Of a stretch of 64,000 nucleotides of DNA, positions 45,559 to 53,226 are shown piece by piece. Origin of the DNA: Selenomonadaceae bacterium (GTDB taxonomy: Bacteria > Bacillota > Negativicutes > Selenomonadales > Selenomonadaceae); NCBI GenBank assembly GCA_017476005.1, contig JAFVEM010000048.1, forward strand, positions 62,001 through 126,000, written 5' to 3'. How positions within the stretch are numbered: position 1 is the first letter of the stretch; the number at the start of each line of letters is the position of its first letter. Below the pieces are notes generated by a model that was not told the origin of the DNA, did not search any database, and saw nothing but the letters and a program-made list of their open reading frames with translations. Both the position numbers and the translations under genes were made by a program.

Positions 45559-48051
45559 ATGATGGAGGCAGGAGAAACTGCGGCGGTACTGGCTACGATA
45601 ACGACCTTGTTTCGTCGCCAAGGAGATGGCAGGAACAATTCCAGCGGCCGACCAACCAAGGAACAAAGGGAGGCGCACGGGCGCGTAACTCCCTTTGTGG
45701 TCATAGCCGGGGACGAAGCACTGTTAAATCAAGAAATAGCGATAAAATTTGCCTTTGACGGCGGTAGCTTGGAACGCCGCTTGCGTCCATTGCGTAAGGG
45801 ATGCGTAGTGCAACTGGTGGGCAGGGTGGAGCCTTTAACCAAGACGAAAAATATATTTGTGGCCGACAAAATGATTGTGGCCTCACCCAGCCAGTTGGCA
45901 GGGGTGGCGAAAAGCAAACTGGGATTTGACCCACAGGACAAAAGAAACTCCATTATCAAGGATAACTTGGGCTTTGCTTTGTGGGATGTACCCATAGTGG
46001 GCGCCGAAGTTTTGGAAACGCAGGAGGTGCAAAGCATTGCCCAGTGGCTGGCGGATATAGGCTATAGCTTCGATATAGATACGGCCTATGCCATAGCGGA
46101 ATTTTTTCACCGCCGCGCTAAAAGCAGGGGATTTGGCGATGTTTACGAGATGATAAAGAAAAATCCCATGGTGCTGGCGGAAATTTCCTATAAAGTCCCC
46201 GAATTGTCTTATGACAAACTTTATCAGCAGTATGAACTTTTTAACCGGGATACGGGACTGGAGAAAATCTCCCTAAAAAATAGCGACAAGGCCAAAGCCG
46301 CCGTGGCCTCTACCCTGCAACGGCTTACCCAGCGAGGCCATGTCTGTTCGCCCATAGCCACGGTAGCTATCCAAGCGCAGAAGGCTTTGAGGGAAGTTAC
46401 CGGCTCTGGCGATGCGCGAAAGTGGATTGAGTACATTATTGGGGAATGCGCCGTGAATGAAGGACGCGAAACAGGCGACGGTTTTGCCTATCGCGGCGGT
46501 TTTGCCCATATTGTAGCGTCCGGCAACGAATCACGACGAATTGGCGGCGGCTATGATAAAGAAGGAATGCTCGCCTTTTACAGCCAAGTCAACTTGCGCC
46601 AAGGGAAAAAACCTGTTTCCGCCGGCTTTGCCCATACGCTGTATTTGCAACAAGCCTTTTTTTCCGAACTAAGAGGCGCCGAGAGGTTGATGGAGCGGAT
46701 AAGAGAAAAGCCGTGGACTGAGTGTTTGGTGGAGTTGGACAGTATCGCCGATTTAGACGACACGCAAAAAAAGGCCCTGCGTATGGCCTTACAGCATAAT
46801 GTGTCCGTAATCGTGGGCGGAGCCGGTACCGGCAAAACTAAGACCATCAGCAAGCTGGTAACTTTGTTGCAAAAGCATGGTTTTCGCTCCGTCATTTTGG
46901 CGCCTTCTGCCAAAGCCGCCGTTAATGCCGCCAAACAAACCGAACGCGAAGGCGGCGGTCGGATAGATTATCAAACGATTCATCGTTTTGCTAGGCTACT
47001 GCCGGAAGACGAAGACATGGGAGAGGGGACGGCGGAAAAGGCTAAGTCGGAGGAAGAACTGCGCGAATTGCGTTGCATTATTGTTGACGAGATGTCCATG
47101 ACGACCATGACGGTTTTTTATCGGTTGCTTTGCGCGGTGGCCGCTCACCCACGGATAAAATTAGTCCTCGTAGGGGACAATAAGCAACTGCCGGCCATTG
47201 GCCCCCGTTTCTTTGATCAACTGGTATCGCCGGGGCTTACCGAGCATATAATCCCCGTAACGAGGTTTCAGCGGAATTACCGCGCCGAGTCGAACCGTTT
47301 TGCGGCTTTTTGCAACGAATTTAGACAGGGGAATTTCGTTTTGCCCGATGACGGGTCGGTGGAGATATACGAGGGCGCTTGGGAGAATTTTTTGCAAGAA
47401 CATAAGGAAACGGCTAAAGACCCTAATACCATGTTTCTGGTGCAGACCACGGAGGAGGAAAAGCAGCTCAACGCCTGTTTGCGACGCTTACGGGGGAACG
47501 ACCTACCGGAGTACCAAATCGGCGACACCATGCTTTACTTGCATGACCCCGTAATAACTACCCAGAATGACTATACGCCTGAGCCGGGAGAGAAGGCAAA
47601 CGCTACGCGCTACCCGGAGCGAAATATCAATGTCTATAACGGTACCGAAGGGGTTATCGAGGAGTGTGGCGATAATGGCGTGGTGACGGTGCGGATGTTT
47701 TCGCCGGAGTTTGAGGAGGAAAAGGGCGTTTTGGTAAAATATCGTTTGCCGGAGCTGACCACCTATCTAAAGCCGGCCTATGCCATTACCGTACACAAAG
47801 CCCAAGGGTGCCAAGCTGATACCGTAGTTTTTGTGGCGACCGGTCGCCAAAGCACTCAAAATTTGGTCTATACGGCTATCACTCGCGCCAAAAAGAAACT
47901 CTATATCATAGGCAGCGCTAGGGATGTGGCAGAGGCGGCTACCCGTCCCGAATCCATTGGCATAGCTAAATTCGCTTTTCGTTTGCGGAAATTGTATCAA
48001 GACGGACAAAAATTGGCTGCAGGTGACGAAGCGGAAGAAGAGATTTACTAA
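45559..48051 (+). CDS. RecD-family superfamily 1B helicase of the type IV (IV-D-like) CRISPR locus
   Basis: An 830-residue protein. The N-terminal half is RecD2-like, with helical repeats of the FGDVYEMIKKNPMVLAEI type. Walker A VIVGGAGTGKTKTISKL lies near residues 418-434, Walker B CIIVDEMSMTTM near 507-518, GDNKQLPAIGPRFF near 538-551, and the C-terminal UvrD-like block AYAITVHKAQGCQADTVVFVATG plus LVYTAITRAKKKLYIIG near 735-778. It is likely a 5'-to-3' DNA helicase. In type IV systems DinG (IV-A) or a RecD helicase (IV-D) acts with the crRNA complex; here RecD follows cas6 by 10 nt. A chromosomal RecD2 role alone is less likely given the coupling. Confidence 0.8.
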   Translation: MMEAGETAAVLATITTLFRRQGDGRNNSSGRPTKEQREAHGRVTPFVVIAGDEALLNQEIAIKFAFDGGSLERRLRPLRKGCVVQLVGRVEPLTKTKNIFVADKMIVASPSQLAGVAKSKLGFDPQDKRNSIIKDNLGFALWDVPIVGAEVLETQEVQSIAQWLADIGYSFDIDTAYAIAEFFHRRAKSRGFGDVYEMIKKNPMVLAEISYKVPELSYDKLYQQYELFNRDTGLEKISLKNSDKAKAAVASTLQRLTQRGHVCSPIATVAIQAQKALREVTGSGDARKWIEYIIGECAVNEGRETGDGFAYRGGFAHIVASGNESRRIGGGYDKEGMLAFYSQVNLRQGKKPVSAGFAHTLYLQQAFFSELRGAERLMERIREKPWTECLVELDSIADLDDTQKKALRMALQHNVSVIVGGAGTGKTKTISKLVTLLQKHGFRSVILAPSAKAAVNAAKQTEREGGGRIDYQTIHRFARLLPEDEDMGEGTAEKAKSEEELRELRCIIVDEMSMTTMTVFYRLLCAVAAHPRIKLVLVGDNKQLPAIGPRFFDQLVSPGLTEHIIPVTRFQRNYRAESNRFAAFCNEFRQGNFVLPDDGSVEIYEGAWENFLQEHKETAKDPNTMFLVQTTEEEKQLNACLRRLRGNDLPEYQIGDTMLYLHDPVITTQNDYTPEPGEKANATRYPERNINVYNGTEGVIEECGDNGVVTVRMFSPEFEEEKGVLVKYRLPELTTYLKPAYAITVHKAQGCQADTVVFVATGRQSTQNLVYTAITRAKKKLYIIGSARDVAEAATRPESIGIAKFAFRLRKLYQDGQKLAAGDEAEEEIY

Positions 48052-48067
48052 CAAAAAAAACAACTTG

Positions 48068-49030
48068 TCAGCTACTGGGTGTGTTGTCCCGTGCGAAAAT
48101 CTGACACAAATCCTCAATCATAGCCCTTTCACGAAGAGAAGCCAGCCACTCTGACGGAATTTCTTCCAGCCCATAGGTAATTCCAGCCAAGCCGCCGACA
48201 ATGGCTCCCACCGTATCGGTATCGTCGCCTAAATTGACGGCTTTGAGTACACAGTCGGCGTAGCTTGCGGTATTCATTAAACACCAGATAACTGCCTCCA
48301 AGGTGTCTATCACATAGCCGCTGCTCTTTATGGATTCTCGTGGTAGCCGAACAAAGGAATCTAAGTCCCAAAGCCGATTATAGGCAAGAACTTCCGATTC
48401 GAATGTCCCTTGGCTGGCGTAAAGTTTTCTCGCCGTCTGTAATCCTGCTCGGATGGCTACGTATAACGATTGCCCTCGCAAGATGTTCACGGCAAGCAAT
48501 GTATAGATGCCGCAAGCCATTTGACTGCGAGGATGAGCGTGGGTCAAGCGCGATAGCGAGTGGGCTTCGTTTAGGCAGTCAGCAACGGGTAAATTCCTTT
48601 CGCAAGCGTAAAGCGCCAAGGGCGCGATCCGCATAAGGGAGCCGTTGCCGTTGTCGTATTCGCCTTTGCCGCCGCAGGAAAGCGGCGGCGCGCCTTGGAG
48701 GTAACGGCTTATCGCCTCATGAGTGGCTATCCCGATGTCAAAAACCTCGCCTGTAGCGGTAAATTTCGACTGTTTCATCCACTTGACAAAATTTTTCATA
48801 ATGTCATCATAGTTAATGGTTTTTAGCCGACCAATGCTCGCTAGGAGGCAAAGAGTCATGCTCGTATCGTCCGACCACGTCCCCGGCGGTTGATTGTGCG
48901 TCCCAAAGCCGCGCATATCCTTCACGGGATTTGCCGCGAGTGACTCCCGTGACATAAATTCCACCGGTACGCCCAGCGCATCGCCAACGGCGGAGCCTAT
49001 TATCATGGCTCTCACTGCTGCTACATTCAT
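48068..49030 (-). CDS. ADP-ribosylglycohydrolase (DraG family)
   Basis: A 320-residue protein. The start at 49030 is supported by GGAGG 8 nt upstream on the minus strand. IIGSAVGDALGVPVEF, TWSDDTSMTLCLLASI and LGDDTDTVGAIVGGLAG carry the acidic residues that hold two magnesium ions in DraG. It removes mono-ADP-ribose from arginine or other residues. It converges on the CRISPR helicase gene (17 nt apart) and is divergent from the MBL operon. It may relate to defence or be unlinked. Confidence 0.9.
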   Translation of the reverse strand: MNVAAVRAMIIGSAVGDALGVPVEFMSRESLAANPVKDMRGFGTHNQPPGTWSDDTSMTLCLLASIGRLKTINYDDIMKNFVKWMKQSKFTATGEVFDIGIATHEAISRYLQGAPPLSCGGKGEYDNGNGSLMRIAPLALYACERNLPVADCLNEAHSLSRLTHAHPRSQMACGIYTLLAVNILRGQSLYVAIRAGLQTARKLYASQGTFESEVLAYNRLWDLDSFVRLPRESIKSSGYVIDTLEAVIWCLMNTASYADCVLKAVNLGDDTDTVGAIVGGLAGITYGLEEIPSEWLASLRERAMIEDLCQIFARDNTPSS

Positions 49031-49138
49031 GAATATGCCTCCATTCGCCAAAATTCATCACTAATTATAGCACAAAGGGGTATGGGGCAAAACCTCATCA
49101 TTTATTACGCTTGATATAAGAGGAGGAGAATAAAGAGC

Positions 49139-50722
49139 ATGACCGCCATTGAAACCATCAAGGAACTCTTCACCCTGAAAGGTGATTTGCTGGAAAGTGC
49201 CGCTAGGTCGGCTGACTTCACCGACGATGAGGCGCTTCTTCGCTCTGTCGCCCAGTGGGCGGCGCAACGGTGCGCAGAAAATGCAGAAACCGTATGGCAA
49301 GAGGCCAAGGTTCTCGTAGCGGAAGATTGGCTTGACTTGTCTTTGCTCAGGGATTTTTTGGAGATAGGACTAAAACCTTGGAAATTCTATGGGCGCATCT
49401 TCGGTTCGAATGAGCAGTATGACGAATGGCGCAGGACTAGGGTTCTGATTACCGTTCATCGTGGCGCGAAGCAAATAGGTGGCAGTATCACCGAGATTTC
49501 CATGGGGCGTACCACCGTTTTGGTAGATTGCGGCAGCGAACTGCCGGGCAGTCGAGGCTCGGTGAGGGATGAGGACATCATCAAGAAGATTTTCGACCAG
49601 CACCGCCGCTATACTGACCATCAGTTAAGCGGCGTACTTTTTACCCACTACCACGGCGACCATGCAGGGCTGATGGAGAAAATTCCCTCCGATATTCCCA
49701 TCTATATGGACGAGGCCATGCGCAAAATTTTACGGGTCTTGCATAAGCATACGGGCAATACCGCCATGCAGGAACTGTTGGCCGATCATAGCGGTCGCAT
49801 TCATACCTTTACGCCGGGGAAACTTTTTCACATCGGCGATATGAACATTGTCCCCTTCTTCGTTGACCACTCGGCCTATCGTGCCACGATGTATCTTTTT
49901 GCCGGGGTGGGGCGTACGATTCTTTTCAGCGGCGATTTTCGTTCTGTGGGTTATATGGGCAAGAGCGTTGCTATTATCCCCAAACTTATCCGCGAAAATT
50001 ATCAGCAGCCAGTGGATGTTCTCTTATGCGAAGGTACGATGCTGACTCGCGACGCAGCAGAGGAACAGCTTCTCACCGAATGGGACGTAAAAAAAGAGGC
50101 CACGGACTTTATGCGTGACCGACGGCAAATTTTCGTCCTCTGCTCCTCTACTAATTTTGACAGCATCACATCCATTTGTCAAGCTGCACAGGCGAATAAC
50201 CTGCCGATTTACGGTAGCGATTACATAGCGGAAATGCTCAAGACTTTTTCCGCTATGGCTGGCGAAAAAATGGGGCTTTATGGTTTGCCGCCGGTGAAAA
50301 GCATCAAAGAATTTTTAGCGAGGAAAGACGGCGAGTATGTTGTCCTCTTAGGCTCCTTGCCCGGGCGAGGAAAGGAAAAGGCGGCAGAACTGTACCGAAA
50401 CTACGGCAAAGGAAAGAGAGAGTATCGTCCGTACTTAATATACTCCCTGTGGCAAGGGTATCTCAATCCTAGGCATCCGGCCTACGATGAAGGTTTGGCG
50501 ACGTTCGTAGGGCAGTTTGACGGACGTTTCAAATACATTCATTCTTCGGGACACGCCGACAGGGATACGCTGGCAAAGTTTATCACGGATATTGCGCCCG
50601 AAAAATACATTGTACCCTTTCACACGGAAAAGGCGGCAGGATTTAAGGAACTTGCCATCGAAGAAAAGTATAGGGATATGGTTATTTTGCCGGAGGACGG
50701 CGATACGATTGAGATTCCGTGA
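49139..50722 (+). CDS. Metallo-beta-lactamase-fold (RNase J/beta-CASP-like) protein with helical N-terminal extension
   Basis: A 527-residue protein with an AGGAGGAG start site. Residues 1-100 are helical and without recognised motif. The MBL domain begins ITVHRGAKQIGGSITEISMG, and FTHYHGDHAG (about residues 179-188) is the HxHxDH metal site, with FFVDHSAYRATMYLF, ILFSGDFRSVGYM and a late FIHS/PFHTEKA (about 500-506) completing it. The last part (FVLCSSTNFDSI to YIHSSGHADRD) looks like a beta-CASP insertion, so RNA or DNA hydrolysis is likely. It is 12 nt upstream of the nuclease-FtsZ-like gene. Confidence 0.82.
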   Translation: MTAIETIKELFTLKGDLLESAARSADFTDDEALLRSVAQWAAQRCAENAETVWQEAKVLVAEDWLDLSLLRDFLEIGLKPWKFYGRIFGSNEQYDEWRRTRVLITVHRGAKQIGGSITEISMGRTTVLVDCGSELPGSRGSVRDEDIIKKIFDQHRRYTDHQLSGVLFTHYHGDHAGLMEKIPSDIPIYMDEAMRKILRVLHKHTGNTAMQELLADHSGRIHTFTPGKLFHIGDMNIVPFFVDHSAYRATMYLFAGVGRTILFSGDFRSVGYMGKSVAIIPKLIRENYQQPVDVLLCEGTMLTRDAAEEQLLTEWDVKKEATDFMRDRRQIFVLCSSTNFDSITSICQAAQANNLPIYGSDYIAEMLKTFSAMAGEKMGLYGLPPVKSIKEFLARKDGEYVVLLGSLPGRGKEKAAELYRNYGKGKREYRPYLIYSLWQGYLNPRHPAYDEGLATFVGQFDGRFKYIHSSGHADRDTLAKFITDIAPEKYIVPFHTEKAAGFKELAIEEKYRDMVILPEDGDTIEIP

Positions 50723-50734
50723 GGAGGAAAGGAC

Positions 50735-51850
50735 ATGAACGGGTATCAGGCATTTTATGAGATGGTGAAAAAGTGGACGGTAAATGATTACCATACCCAA
50801 GGCATCAAGGCGGAGGTCATTCTCGATATGCTTATCTCCGAGTTTATCGAGGAAATGGTGGCGGCAAAAATGCGGAAGAAGCTTGATGCGGTGAAACTTC
50901 TGGCCAAGGAATTTCCCATCCGCACCACCGATAAGAATCTGCGCAATGCCAAGGTTGACTATTTGGTGCAGGTGGAGGACAAAATATATTTGACGGAGCT
51001 AAAAACCACCAACGACAGCTTCCAAGACACGCAAGCAGCTAATATGCAAAATGCCGTCAACCGCAAGGCCGCCGACCTGTGGGATTTTTTCCGGCAAATA
51101 GTCACGAGTAAGGAACAAAACCGTGTCGATAGTCAGAAGTATGCCTTTACGCTAAAGCGCCTAAAAGAGAAAGTCGGGTGGGAGGAAGGCCAGCCCATAC
51201 CTGAATCACTGACGAAGGCCGAACTGGATATTTTATATATCGGTCTGCATGAAACGCCCCAAAGCGGCAAATTCTTTCGGCATGGCCAAAAACATTTTTA
51301 CTTGGAACACCTGTCCGCCAACCGTAACTTTATTGCCGCCTTGGAAGCGCATGGGAAAAACGCGGCTTGGGATAAGCTCTCCGAGATTTTAAGTGCCGTC
51401 CTGGAAGCGGCCGTCAAATTTGAGGGTGGTAAAACTAAACTCATCAAGACTAAAACCTTTGCTAAGAACAATGCCGAGTACCAAAAATTTTACGCAAGTT
51501 TGGTTGCTGAACTCACCGAGCCGGGACTGATTGGCTTGGACGAATATGACCTTGCGCCTCTCAAGGACTTTACGGGCAGCGTTTATATGGGCGAGGCCGA
51601 GGCAGTGGGAGAAAATGCCATCAAGCTGGCCACGAAAGCGGCGTTATCTAAAGCTGAAAACTTGGGTAGCGCCGCATATGTGTTGCTATCCATTTACAGC
51701 AGCGAAGATAAAGTTGATATGTCCGAGGTGAACGAGGCCACAGCTTTTCTTGATGAATTGGCTCCAGAGATGGAGTGCGTTTTTAGTATCCATATCGATG
51801 ATACCTTGGGCGATACGGTGCGAGTCATGGTCGTGGCCAAAATTCCATGA
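50735..51850 (+). CDS. PD-(D/E)XK nuclease-like protein fused to an FtsZ C-terminal-like domain
   Basis: A 371-residue protein, start ATG 50735 with GAGGAAAGG upstream. Residues about 15-125 look like a PD-(D/E)XK nuclease: NAKVDYLVQVEDKIYLTELK, with D75, E88 and K90 in the right spacing. The middle (about 130-275) is helical and unassigned. The last about 90 residues match the C-terminal two-layer sandwich of FtsZ: YMGEAEAVGENAIKLAT, VDMSEVNEATAFLDEL and SIHIDDTLGDTVRVMVV. The FtsZ GTPase domain (GGGTGTG) is absent. It is the second gene of a two-gene operon with the MBL protein. Function unknown; a role in defence or in blocking division is only a hypothesis. Confidence 0.72.
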   Translation: MNGYQAFYEMVKKWTVNDYHTQGIKAEVILDMLISEFIEEMVAAKMRKKLDAVKLLAKEFPIRTTDKNLRNAKVDYLVQVEDKIYLTELKTTNDSFQDTQAANMQNAVNRKAADLWDFFRQIVTSKEQNRVDSQKYAFTLKRLKEKVGWEEGQPIPESLTKAELDILYIGLHETPQSGKFFRHGQKHFYLEHLSANRNFIAALEAHGKNAAWDKLSEILSAVLEAAVKFEGGKTKLIKTKTFAKNNAEYQKFYASLVAELTEPGLIGLDEYDLAPLKDFTGSVYMGEAEAVGENAIKLATKAALSKAENLGSAAYVLLSIYSSEDKVDMSEVNEATAFLDELAPEMECVFSIHIDDTLGDTVRVMVVAKIP

Positions 51851-52056
51851 GACGCGCACTTGTCGGCTACGAAAATTGTACGCGGATGGGCAAAAAGCTA
51901 CGCCGATAGATAGAGGAAAGGGAGGCGGGAATTTTCTCGGGAAGCCCCACCGGACAGGCCTAAAAAAAGGTTGTACTGAAAGCTGTTATGTAATAGAATA
52001 CCCCCCGGAATCCTATCGGATTCCCAAACGATGCCGAATAAAGATGGGAGAGTGCT

Positions 52057-53226
52057 ATGAAACAGCTGAATAGCTTTAAACTTACGCGACAGGAAGTCCG
52101 GGAACTGGCCGAGAAAAACCCTACCCCCTTTTTGGTGGTTTCCTTGGATAAGATAGAAGAAAACTATGAGTTTTTAAGAGAGCATCTGCCTCGCGCCGGG
52201 GTTTACTACGCCATGAAGGCCAACCCCGACAAGGAAATCTTAAAACGCCTCGCCGACCTAGGGGCGAATTTCGACGTGGCCTCCGCCGGGGAAATGGTCA
52301 TGCTTCATGAACTGGGCATTGAGGGCAGTCGCATGATTTACGCCAACACCGTGAAGGACTTCAAGGGACTGGCGGCGGCTCGTGAGTTTGGCGTGCGGCG
52401 TTTTACCTTTGACGACGCGTCGGAAATTAAAAAAATGGCAAACTATGTGCCGGGAGCCGATGTGTTGGTACGCATTAGCGTGAAAAACAGCAAGGCGCTG
52501 GTGGATTTAAATACGAAATTTGGCGCGGAACCATATATGGCCATTCCGTTGCTGAAACAGGCGCAAGAGGCCGGGCTGAATCCCGTGGGCATTTGTTTCC
52601 ATGTGGGGAGTCAATCGCTATCCACGGCGGCCTATGAGGAGGCGTTGCTTCTTTGCCGAGGACTGTTTAACGAGGCGAGGGATGCCGGGCTACAGCTTAC
52701 GGATCTCGACATCGGGGGCGGCTTGCCGGTACCGTCGGCGGAAGGGCTGGCCGTGGATTTGGCCAAAATGATGAGCGCCATCAATAAGCAAATCAATAGG
52801 CTGTTCCCGGATACGGCGGTATGGTGCGAGCCGGGGCGGTACATTTGCGGCACGGCGGTGAACCTCGTCAGCTCCGTTATCGGCAAAAAGGAACGGCACG
52901 GCTCCCTGTGGTACACCGTGGATGAGAGCATTTACGGCGCCTTGTCGGGGATTATTTACGACCACTGGACTTATCCTTTAAAAACCTTTGGTCACGGGCA
53001 AAAACGTAAGTCAACCATTGTAGGCCCCAGTTGCGACGGCATCGATGTTCTGTATAGGGATTTAGACCTGCCGGCCATGGATATCGGCGATTGTATTTTG
53101 GTCTCGGATATCGGGGCTTACGCCTCTGTCAGCGCCACGCGCTTTAACGGTTTTGAAATAGCCCCCACCTTGGTTTATGAAGCTGAAATCCAGCATGGCG
53201 CAATTCCTTGGCGGATTGCCGTCTGA
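52057..53226 (+). CDS. ldc: Lysine/ornithine decarboxylase, Selenomonas type (fold type III PLP enzyme)
   Basis: A 389-residue protein. PTPFLVVSLDKIEENYEFL, YYAMKANPDKEIL (K about residue 53 binds PLP), FHVGSQSLSTAAYEEALL, DIGGGLPVPSA, EPGRYICGTAVNLVSSVIG and GPSCDGIDVLYRDLDLP match alanine-racemase-fold decarboxylases. It resembles the Selenomonas ruminantium enzyme, whose product cadaverine is bound to peptidoglycan (family knowledge). The 206-nt upstream gap (51851-52056) has no recognised feature except GAGTGC just before the ATG. Confidence 0.92.
   Translation: MKQLNSFKLTRQEVRELAEKNPTPFLVVSLDKIEENYEFLREHLPRAGVYYAMKANPDKEILKRLADLGANFDVASAGEMVMLHELGIEGSRMIYANTVKDFKGLAAAREFGVRRFTFDDASEIKKMANYVPGADVLVRISVKNSKALVDLNTKFGAEPYMAIPLLKQAQEAGLNPVGICFHVGSQSLSTAAYEEALLLCRGLFNEARDAGLQLTDLDIGGGLPVPSAEGLAVDLAKMMSAINKQINRLFPDTAVWCEPGRYICGTAVNLVSSVIGKKERHGSLWYTVDESIYGALSGIIYDHWTYPLKTFGHGQKRKSTIVGPSCDGIDVLYRDLDLPAMDIGDCILVSDIGAYASVSATRFNGFEIAPTLVYEAEIQHGAIPWRIAV

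Follow-up and report, generated by a model that had tools for sequence, protein, structure and literature searches.

A gene at 50735..51850 on the forward strand of the window (the 64,000-nt stretch of a contig from a gut Selenomonadaceae bacterium analysed here) encodes a 371-residue protein in which a PD-(D/E)XK-like nuclease domain is joined to the C-terminal half of the division protein FtsZ, as seen in the open reading frame, a Pfam FtsZ_C match, the AlphaFold2 model and a second copy of the fusion. Its sequence suggests that the cutting of nucleic acids may be linked to the division machinery. Our best explanation, to which we give a probability of about 0.38, is that the FtsZ half docks on the host FtsZ through its T7 surface and ties a predicted nuclease in a probable conflict or stress cassette to the division protein. 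Phages and the toxins of competitors often target FtsZ, which is known as a complete GTPase. As far as we could search, the fusion architecture appears to be new and its function is a prediction. Literature searches with most subscription papers outside their scope returned no description of an FtsZ C-terminal domain combined with a nuclease, nor of the C-terminal half alone as a portable domain, and queries on FtsZ with WYL and nuclease conflict, on Lmo0067, on FtsZ decoys and on ADP-ribosylglycohydrolase (ARH) with beta-CASP found nothing describing such a combination. A preliminary description had recognized the fusion of a nuclease to FtsZ_C and suggested that the protein may bind a tubulin-like partner or oligomerise, but overlooked the conserved cassette around it, with its MBL-fold and ARH genes, and the loci in which the FtsZ half is a separate gene.

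The fusion reading frame starts with ATG behind a strong ribosome-binding site (ggaggaa), 12 nt from the stop of the MBL gene upstream. The same fusion occurs at full length and 67% identity in an independent genome, a water-deer rumen MAG (G121, locus L039, identical with L051), and is therefore not an assembly artefact. Between the two fusions dN/dS is ∼0.10 in the nuclease half and ∼0.30 in the FtsZ half, with dS near saturation, and purifying selection acts on both halves; the independent MAG copy and this selection together rule out chance or misassembly as the origin of the gene. The two FtsZ halves are 57% identical to each other and evolve faster than the nuclease halves. AlphaFold2, with 18 related sequences as input, models the whole protein at a mean pLDDT of 87.8, with each of its two parts predicted with confidence.

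Residues 253-371 (51491..51847, +) are, by sequence and predicted fold, the C-terminal half of FtsZ, comprising the end of helix H7, the T7 loop and the sandwich, an assignment drawn from Pfam, the host FtsZ, AlphaFold2 and Foldseek. The sole significant Pfam match of the fusion protein is FtsZ_C (PF12327), which covers residues 281-368 with profile positions 1-91 of 95 (E=3.7e-6) and, at 27.6 bits, narrowly passes the cut-off of 27 bits. An NCBIfam match to FtsZ takes in this stretch and ∼30 preceding residues and lies far under the whole-protein cut-off. Residues 260-368 share 40% identity over 109 residues with the host's own division FtsZ (E=3.7e-15), and among solved structures the FtsZ half matches residues 198-309 of the M. 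tuberculosis protein (E=2e-10); because both matches begin near the end of helix H7, the FtsZ homology is taken to start there. The preliminary description had located a sandwich in the last ∼90 residues, but homology sets in ∼20 residues earlier and includes the T7 loop. The order of elements in the AlphaFold2 model (beta 282-291, alpha 295-303, beta 315-322, alpha 329-342, beta 347-354, beta 361-370) bears out an FtsZ-like sandwich, and so do the Foldseek matches, every listed one of which is an FtsZ structure (best E=2.2e-10); one of them, 5v68_D, aligns with the FtsZ half across 129 columns at 3.7 A. A match to the CbeA antitoxin, whose family acts on FtsZ, fell under the Pfam cut-off (E=0.047) and was disregarded.

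The likeness to FtsZ, namely the C-terminal sandwich, the T7 loop and ∼40% identity to the host protein across 109 residues, stops short of a complete FtsZ. A nuclease-like domain stands in place of the FtsZ N-terminus, the C-terminal linker and tail peptide are missing, and the protein ends where the sandwich ends. Pfam gave no match to the tubulin/FtsZ GTPase domain (PF00091, GGGTGTG) and no G-box motif occurs in the fusion protein, which lies outside FtsZ itself on this domain; its absence had been noted from the first. Divergent FtsZ-superfamily proteins joined to other domains have been described as FtsZl1, found in multi-gene operons, and FtsZl2, and these retain the GTPase region at the N-terminus, with GGGTG(S/T)G, and have different C-termini (Makarova and Koonin 2010, PMC2875224), whereas the fusion protein keeps the opposite FtsZ half and is without their GTPase domain. 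Its T7 (synergy) loop, GLIGLDEYDL at residues 264-273 (51524..51553, +; alignment and motif table), retains both aspartates of the NxDxxD motif while the asparagine has become glycine. Across the FtsZ-half family the asparagine is replaced by glycine or serine and the residue after the first aspartate changes from F to E; among the six FtsZ-half copies the first aspartate is present in all six and the second is D or E.

The N-terminal domain (residues 1-230; 50735..51424, +) very likely has the PD-(D/E)XK nuclease fold, judging from the models, and constitutes an undescribed family of that fold. In an alignment of 15 relatives, which come from Lachnospiraceae, Selenomonadaceae and a second family of the latter's class, the polar residues that never vary are D18, S95 and the set E27, K58, E59, D75, E88, K90 and Q100 (window numbering); in L042 and L043, which stand outside that alignment, D75 and K90 are both lost. 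The putative catalytic motif D75 ... E88-x-K90 (50957..51004, +) occupies the positions given for it in the preliminary description, is invariant in the alignment and lies on the predicted nuclease core. The order E, D, (D/E)xK and Q is as in RecB/Cas4-like members of the PD-(D/E)XK superfamily. Modelled alone with AlphaFold2, residues 1-247 reach a pTM of 0.79 and form a helix at 24-46 and strands at 53-62, 72-80 and 83-90, followed by helices and a further strand. The alpha-beta-beta-beta-alpha-beta core of the superfamily is present in the models with the conserved residues placed on it, and the nuclease fold proposed earlier for the N-terminus emerges here as a predicted restriction-endonuclease-like fold with E...D...ExK...Q. 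Foldseek matches to the domain are individually insignificant (best E 0.045; probability up to 0.82, NucS, 2vld); nearly all of the best 50 are PD-(D/E)XK-type enzymes, and the matches include Nt.BspD6I, R2 endonuclease, NucS/EndoMS, MGME1, Cdn1/Can2/Card1, McrC, SduA and RecU. Members of the nuclease family also give sub-threshold Pfam matches to NERD, VRR_NUC, PDDEXK_4, SduA_C and HSDR_N, all of the same superfamily. The domain thus resembles PD-(D/E)XK nucleases in its E, D, ExK, Q pattern, its alpha-beta-beta-beta-alpha core and these weak fold matches, but it differs in having no sequence match to a known member, with nothing significant in Pfam, PADLOC or PDB sequences. Kinship with PDDEXK_4, the nuclease beside an FtsZ-like gene at locus L078, was rejected after a negative profile comparison. 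Nuclease activity is likely, as predicted from sequence criteria.

The fusion gene follows an MBL-fold/beta-CASP nuclease gene of the RNase J / EF2904-like type (49139..50722, +; 527 aa), recognized by Pfam (Lactamase_B_2, E=9.9e-13; RMMBL, 1.7e-8), by NCBIfam and by a PDB match to 2az4. Its metal motif HYHGDH is intact, and HxHxDH is present in the MBL proteins of 10 intact relatives. This motif and the RMMBL domain liken it to RNase J / EF2904-type proteins, from which it differs in a ∼100-residue N-terminal extension and in an NCBIfam RNase J score (2.4e-10) under the model cut-off. Divergent from the MBL gene and ∼90 bp apart lies an ADP-ribosylglycohydrolase gene of the ARH/DraG family (48068..49051, −), present as a single copy in the host genome and belonging to its family with E=8.6e-81 against PF03747. 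The best PDB match of the ARH is Lmo0067 (8za7, 1.6e-75) and the second is 6dre/6drh (6dre, 3.6e-44), which is Tri1, the protein that confers immunity to Tre1, a toxin modifying FtsZ. The Tri1/Tre1 system, reportedly described by Ting and colleagues in 2018, whose paper is reference 25 of PMC11699363, pairs an FtsZ-targeting ADP-ribosylating toxin with an ARH immunity protein. The window is similar in that a Tri1-related ARH adjoins a gene with an FtsZ part, but its ARH is closer to Lmo0067, nucleases are present, and a Pfam scan of the main genes at 45559-53226 found no ADP-ribosyltransferase toxin near the cassette. A RecD2/Tra-like helicase gene with an N-terminal extension (45559-48051, 830 aa) is convergent with the ARH gene and was not seen in related cassettes, and was rejected as a member of the system. 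The cassette is flanked by ordinary chromosomal genes.

Relatives of the nuclease domain were recovered by an alignment query, where a single-protein query of the genome contigs had given none. They amount to 19 loci, of which Selenomonadaceae contribute 12 (from 11 genomes), a second family of the class 2 and Lachnospiraceae 5. The family is rare, and in the class 13 of 380 genomes carry it; related cassettes are found in rumen Selenomonadaceae and Lachnospiraceae. An MBL gene adjoins the nuclease gene in 11 of the 19 loci, once as a fragment, and an ARH adjoins the nuclease domain in 9, as a weak match in L063 and in one of the 9 as the fusion partner of a neighbouring protein. At L048 (6831-9158) a 775-aa protein with a C-terminal ARH domain sits beside a 470-aa nuclease-domain protein. 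Many of the 19 loci also carry a regulator, either WYL-type, HTH or a large protein ending in an HTH. Of all the neighbour associations described here, those of the other FtsZ-derived genes included, the MBL and ARH links of the nuclease family alone seem clearly more than coincidence, because these neighbours are shared by two bacterial classes and the ARH is single-copy in the host. Searches of viral contigs, phages and plasmids yielded no member of the nuclease family, the sole matches being FtsZ-like ones that involve the C half, and a phage or plasmid origin was rejected on that ground. PADLOC-DB holds no match for the window nuclease, MBL or ARH genes, and a known defence family was rejected for that reason; among the relatives it gave none for the nuclease domain and a weak LmuA match (E=4e-4) for one MBL protein. 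With a beta-CASP MBL protein, a PD-(D/E)XK nuclease and an ARH alongside, the cassette is probably a conflict or stress system.

In Lachnospiraceae and at L040, L042, L043, L047, L048 and L049 the nuclease domain and MBL gene stand without an FtsZ part, and the FtsZ half is therefore not essential to the cassette. This FtsZ half was found in five Selenomonadaceae loci only, all of which have the nuclease domain or a remnant of it. It is fused in two genomes (the window and L039) and a separate gene in three. At L041 the FtsZ_C gene is directly downstream of the nuclease gene, after two in-frame stops and with its own ribosome-binding site; at L045 it is near the nuclease gene; at L046 it is kept despite broken nuclease and MBL genes. 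In the tree a single clade on a long branch (support 100/99) holds all six FtsZ-half copies, which makes a single capture by Selenomonadaceae cassettes probable. The two parts of the fusion are joined by a linker with an extra strand, residues 231-252 (KTKLIKTKTFAKNNAEYQKF; 51425..51490, +), delimited by the AlphaFold2 models and the L041 junction. Residues 232-247 are disordered (pLDDT <50) in the nuclease-only model, and residues 233-243 form a strand only in the full-length model, where the FtsZ half is present. Because the tail of the L041 nuclease gene and the head of its FtsZ_C gene both resemble this linker, the sequences suggest that fusion or splitting went through a linker-like stretch. 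A 283-aa protein encoded between the nuclease and FtsZ_C genes of L045 (9772-10623) resembles a full-length FtsZ; it is probably a very degenerate one, with a long branch in the tree, and was left out of the evidence on mechanism.

Apart from two ftsZ genes, the normal one and a second, Selenomonadaceae carry many FtsZ-derived genes, some of which adjoin nucleases. The host genome itself (G000) has a second pairing of FtsZ_C with a nuclease at L087 (6502-7709, contig C47), where a 153-aa FtsZ_C-only gene with a weak match overlaps the end of an NYN-domain nuclease gene. It also has, at L050 (2472-7760, contig C43), a degenerate FtsZ of 380 aa (FtsZ_C E=7e-16) with an extra N-terminal domain, which directly follows a DUF2201 metallopeptidase/VWA gene and has a WYL regulator upstream. 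Pieces of two essential proteins adjoin a nuclease at L078 (5390-10187), which holds a WYL regulator, a PDDEXK_4 nuclease (PADLOC candidate PDC-S26), a DnaA-like ATPase fragment and a GTPase-less FtsZ-like gene, and a DnaA-like gene accompanies an FtsZ-like gene at L095. A RidA/L-PSP domain is fused to an FtsZ C-terminal domain at L100 (7168-8049), and two tandem degenerate FtsZ units per chain are found at L085 (6878-8620) and L086 (6977-8329), in proteins of 580 and 450 aa. A calcineurin-like phosphatase gene precedes an FtsZ-like gene (244-310 aa) at L085, L088, L093, L102 and L104-L107, and at L085 an ARH gene follows this pair. At L083 the FtsZ-like genes have genes for a von Willebrand A protein and a kinase of proteins close by, and in many genomes of genus g11 a GTPase-less FtsZ-like gene stands in tandem directly after ftsZ (L117, 3917-6019, and similar sites).

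Within an FtsZ filament each subunit rests with its T7 loop and C-terminal sandwich on the GTP face of the next. In the docking reading, the fusion gene closes a small cassette of nucleases to which Selenomonadaceae added the lower half of FtsZ, and this half, with its T7 surface, would fit the GTP face of an FtsZ subunit. It would bind FtsZ monomers or exposed filament ends and would cap rather than extend them, because it lacks a GTP-binding face on which a next subunit could sit and its T7 loop is changed; the altered loop might also fail to support hydrolysis. Docking would place or switch the attached nuclease at FtsZ, and cutting would be coupled to the state of division, either as division arrest or as cutting at the septum. 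Both folds are shown at the level of prediction, and the sequences show the catalytic pattern, a gene order that recurs, selection and a single origin of the FtsZ half; from there we infer nuclease activity, FtsZ binding, capping and a conflict role.

Several observations speak for docking: the retained T7 aspartates in what is FtsZ by sequence and fold, the invariant nuclease pattern, the recurrent MBL and ARH neighbours, and an FtsZ half that forms a single clade, accompanies only the nuclease or its remnant and is under purifying selection together with it. Against it count the dispensability of the FtsZ half to the cassette, the lack of a PADLOC match, the ordinary chromosomal surroundings and nuclease fold matches that are individually insignificant (best E 0.045), and the T7 aspartates could be retained for folding reasons instead.

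The main rival to docking, which we consider rather unlikely, is that the FtsZ half is a decoy or sensor, a bait for phage or competitor proteins that attack FtsZ (inhibitors binding the C-terminal half, or modifying toxins). If such a protein bound or modified the bait, the nuclease would be freed and the cell would die or arrest, and the ARH would reverse the modification. Such a role is consistent with the ARH neighbour, whose second-best PDB match is Tri1, and with the other FtsZ-derived Selenomonadaceae genes in cassettes with a DnaA-like ATPase fragment and PDDEXK_4 (L078) or with an ARH (L085). However, the arginine modified by Tre1 is in the GTPase half of FtsZ, which is absent from the fusion protein, the nearest solved ARH is Lmo0067 rather than Tri1, and the scan of the main genes revealed no toxin gene beside the cassette. 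Bait domains of this kind would have a likeness in the integrated decoys of plant immune receptors, of which the FtsZ-half module is proposed as a bacterial counterpart. Still tentative, and only slightly less doubtful than the decoy, is the broader proposal that in Selenomonadaceae FtsZ pieces, either detached or without the GTPase domain, act as portable modules of immune-like cassettes, with the lower half serving as an integrated decoy or a dock that switches a PD-(D/E)XK nuclease when FtsZ is attacked or division stalls.

It is less probable still that the sandwich has been co-opted for structure only, in dimerisation, stability or regulation of the nuclease, its contact with FtsZ having been lost. 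The ordering of strand 233-243 by the C half would fit such a use, and the FtsZ_C-RidA fusion (L100) and the tandem and stand-alone forms in the family point to general tinkering with this domain; yet stand-alone FtsZ_C genes and kept T7 aspartates favour a partner, and we know of no FtsZ-half oligomer of this kind. A housekeeping pair for RNA or DNA processing (MBL and PD-(D/E)XK) with no conflict role and a drifting FtsZ remnant would suit the ordinary chromosomal setting, the loss of the C half in L040 and its faster evolution, but is improbable, as the patchy occurrence (13/380), the decay in L039 and L046 and the variable partners better fit an accessory system and the C half has a dN/dS clearly <1.

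If, as docking predicts, the FtsZ half binds FtsZ, it would be a natural cap or tether for filament ends and a tool for the study of FtsZ dynamics, and it would tie nucleic-acid cleavage directly to division. If the decoy reading were true instead, bacteria would guard FtsZ. The FtsZ-derived genes of the Selenomonadaceae of the rumen and gut would supply many natural variants.
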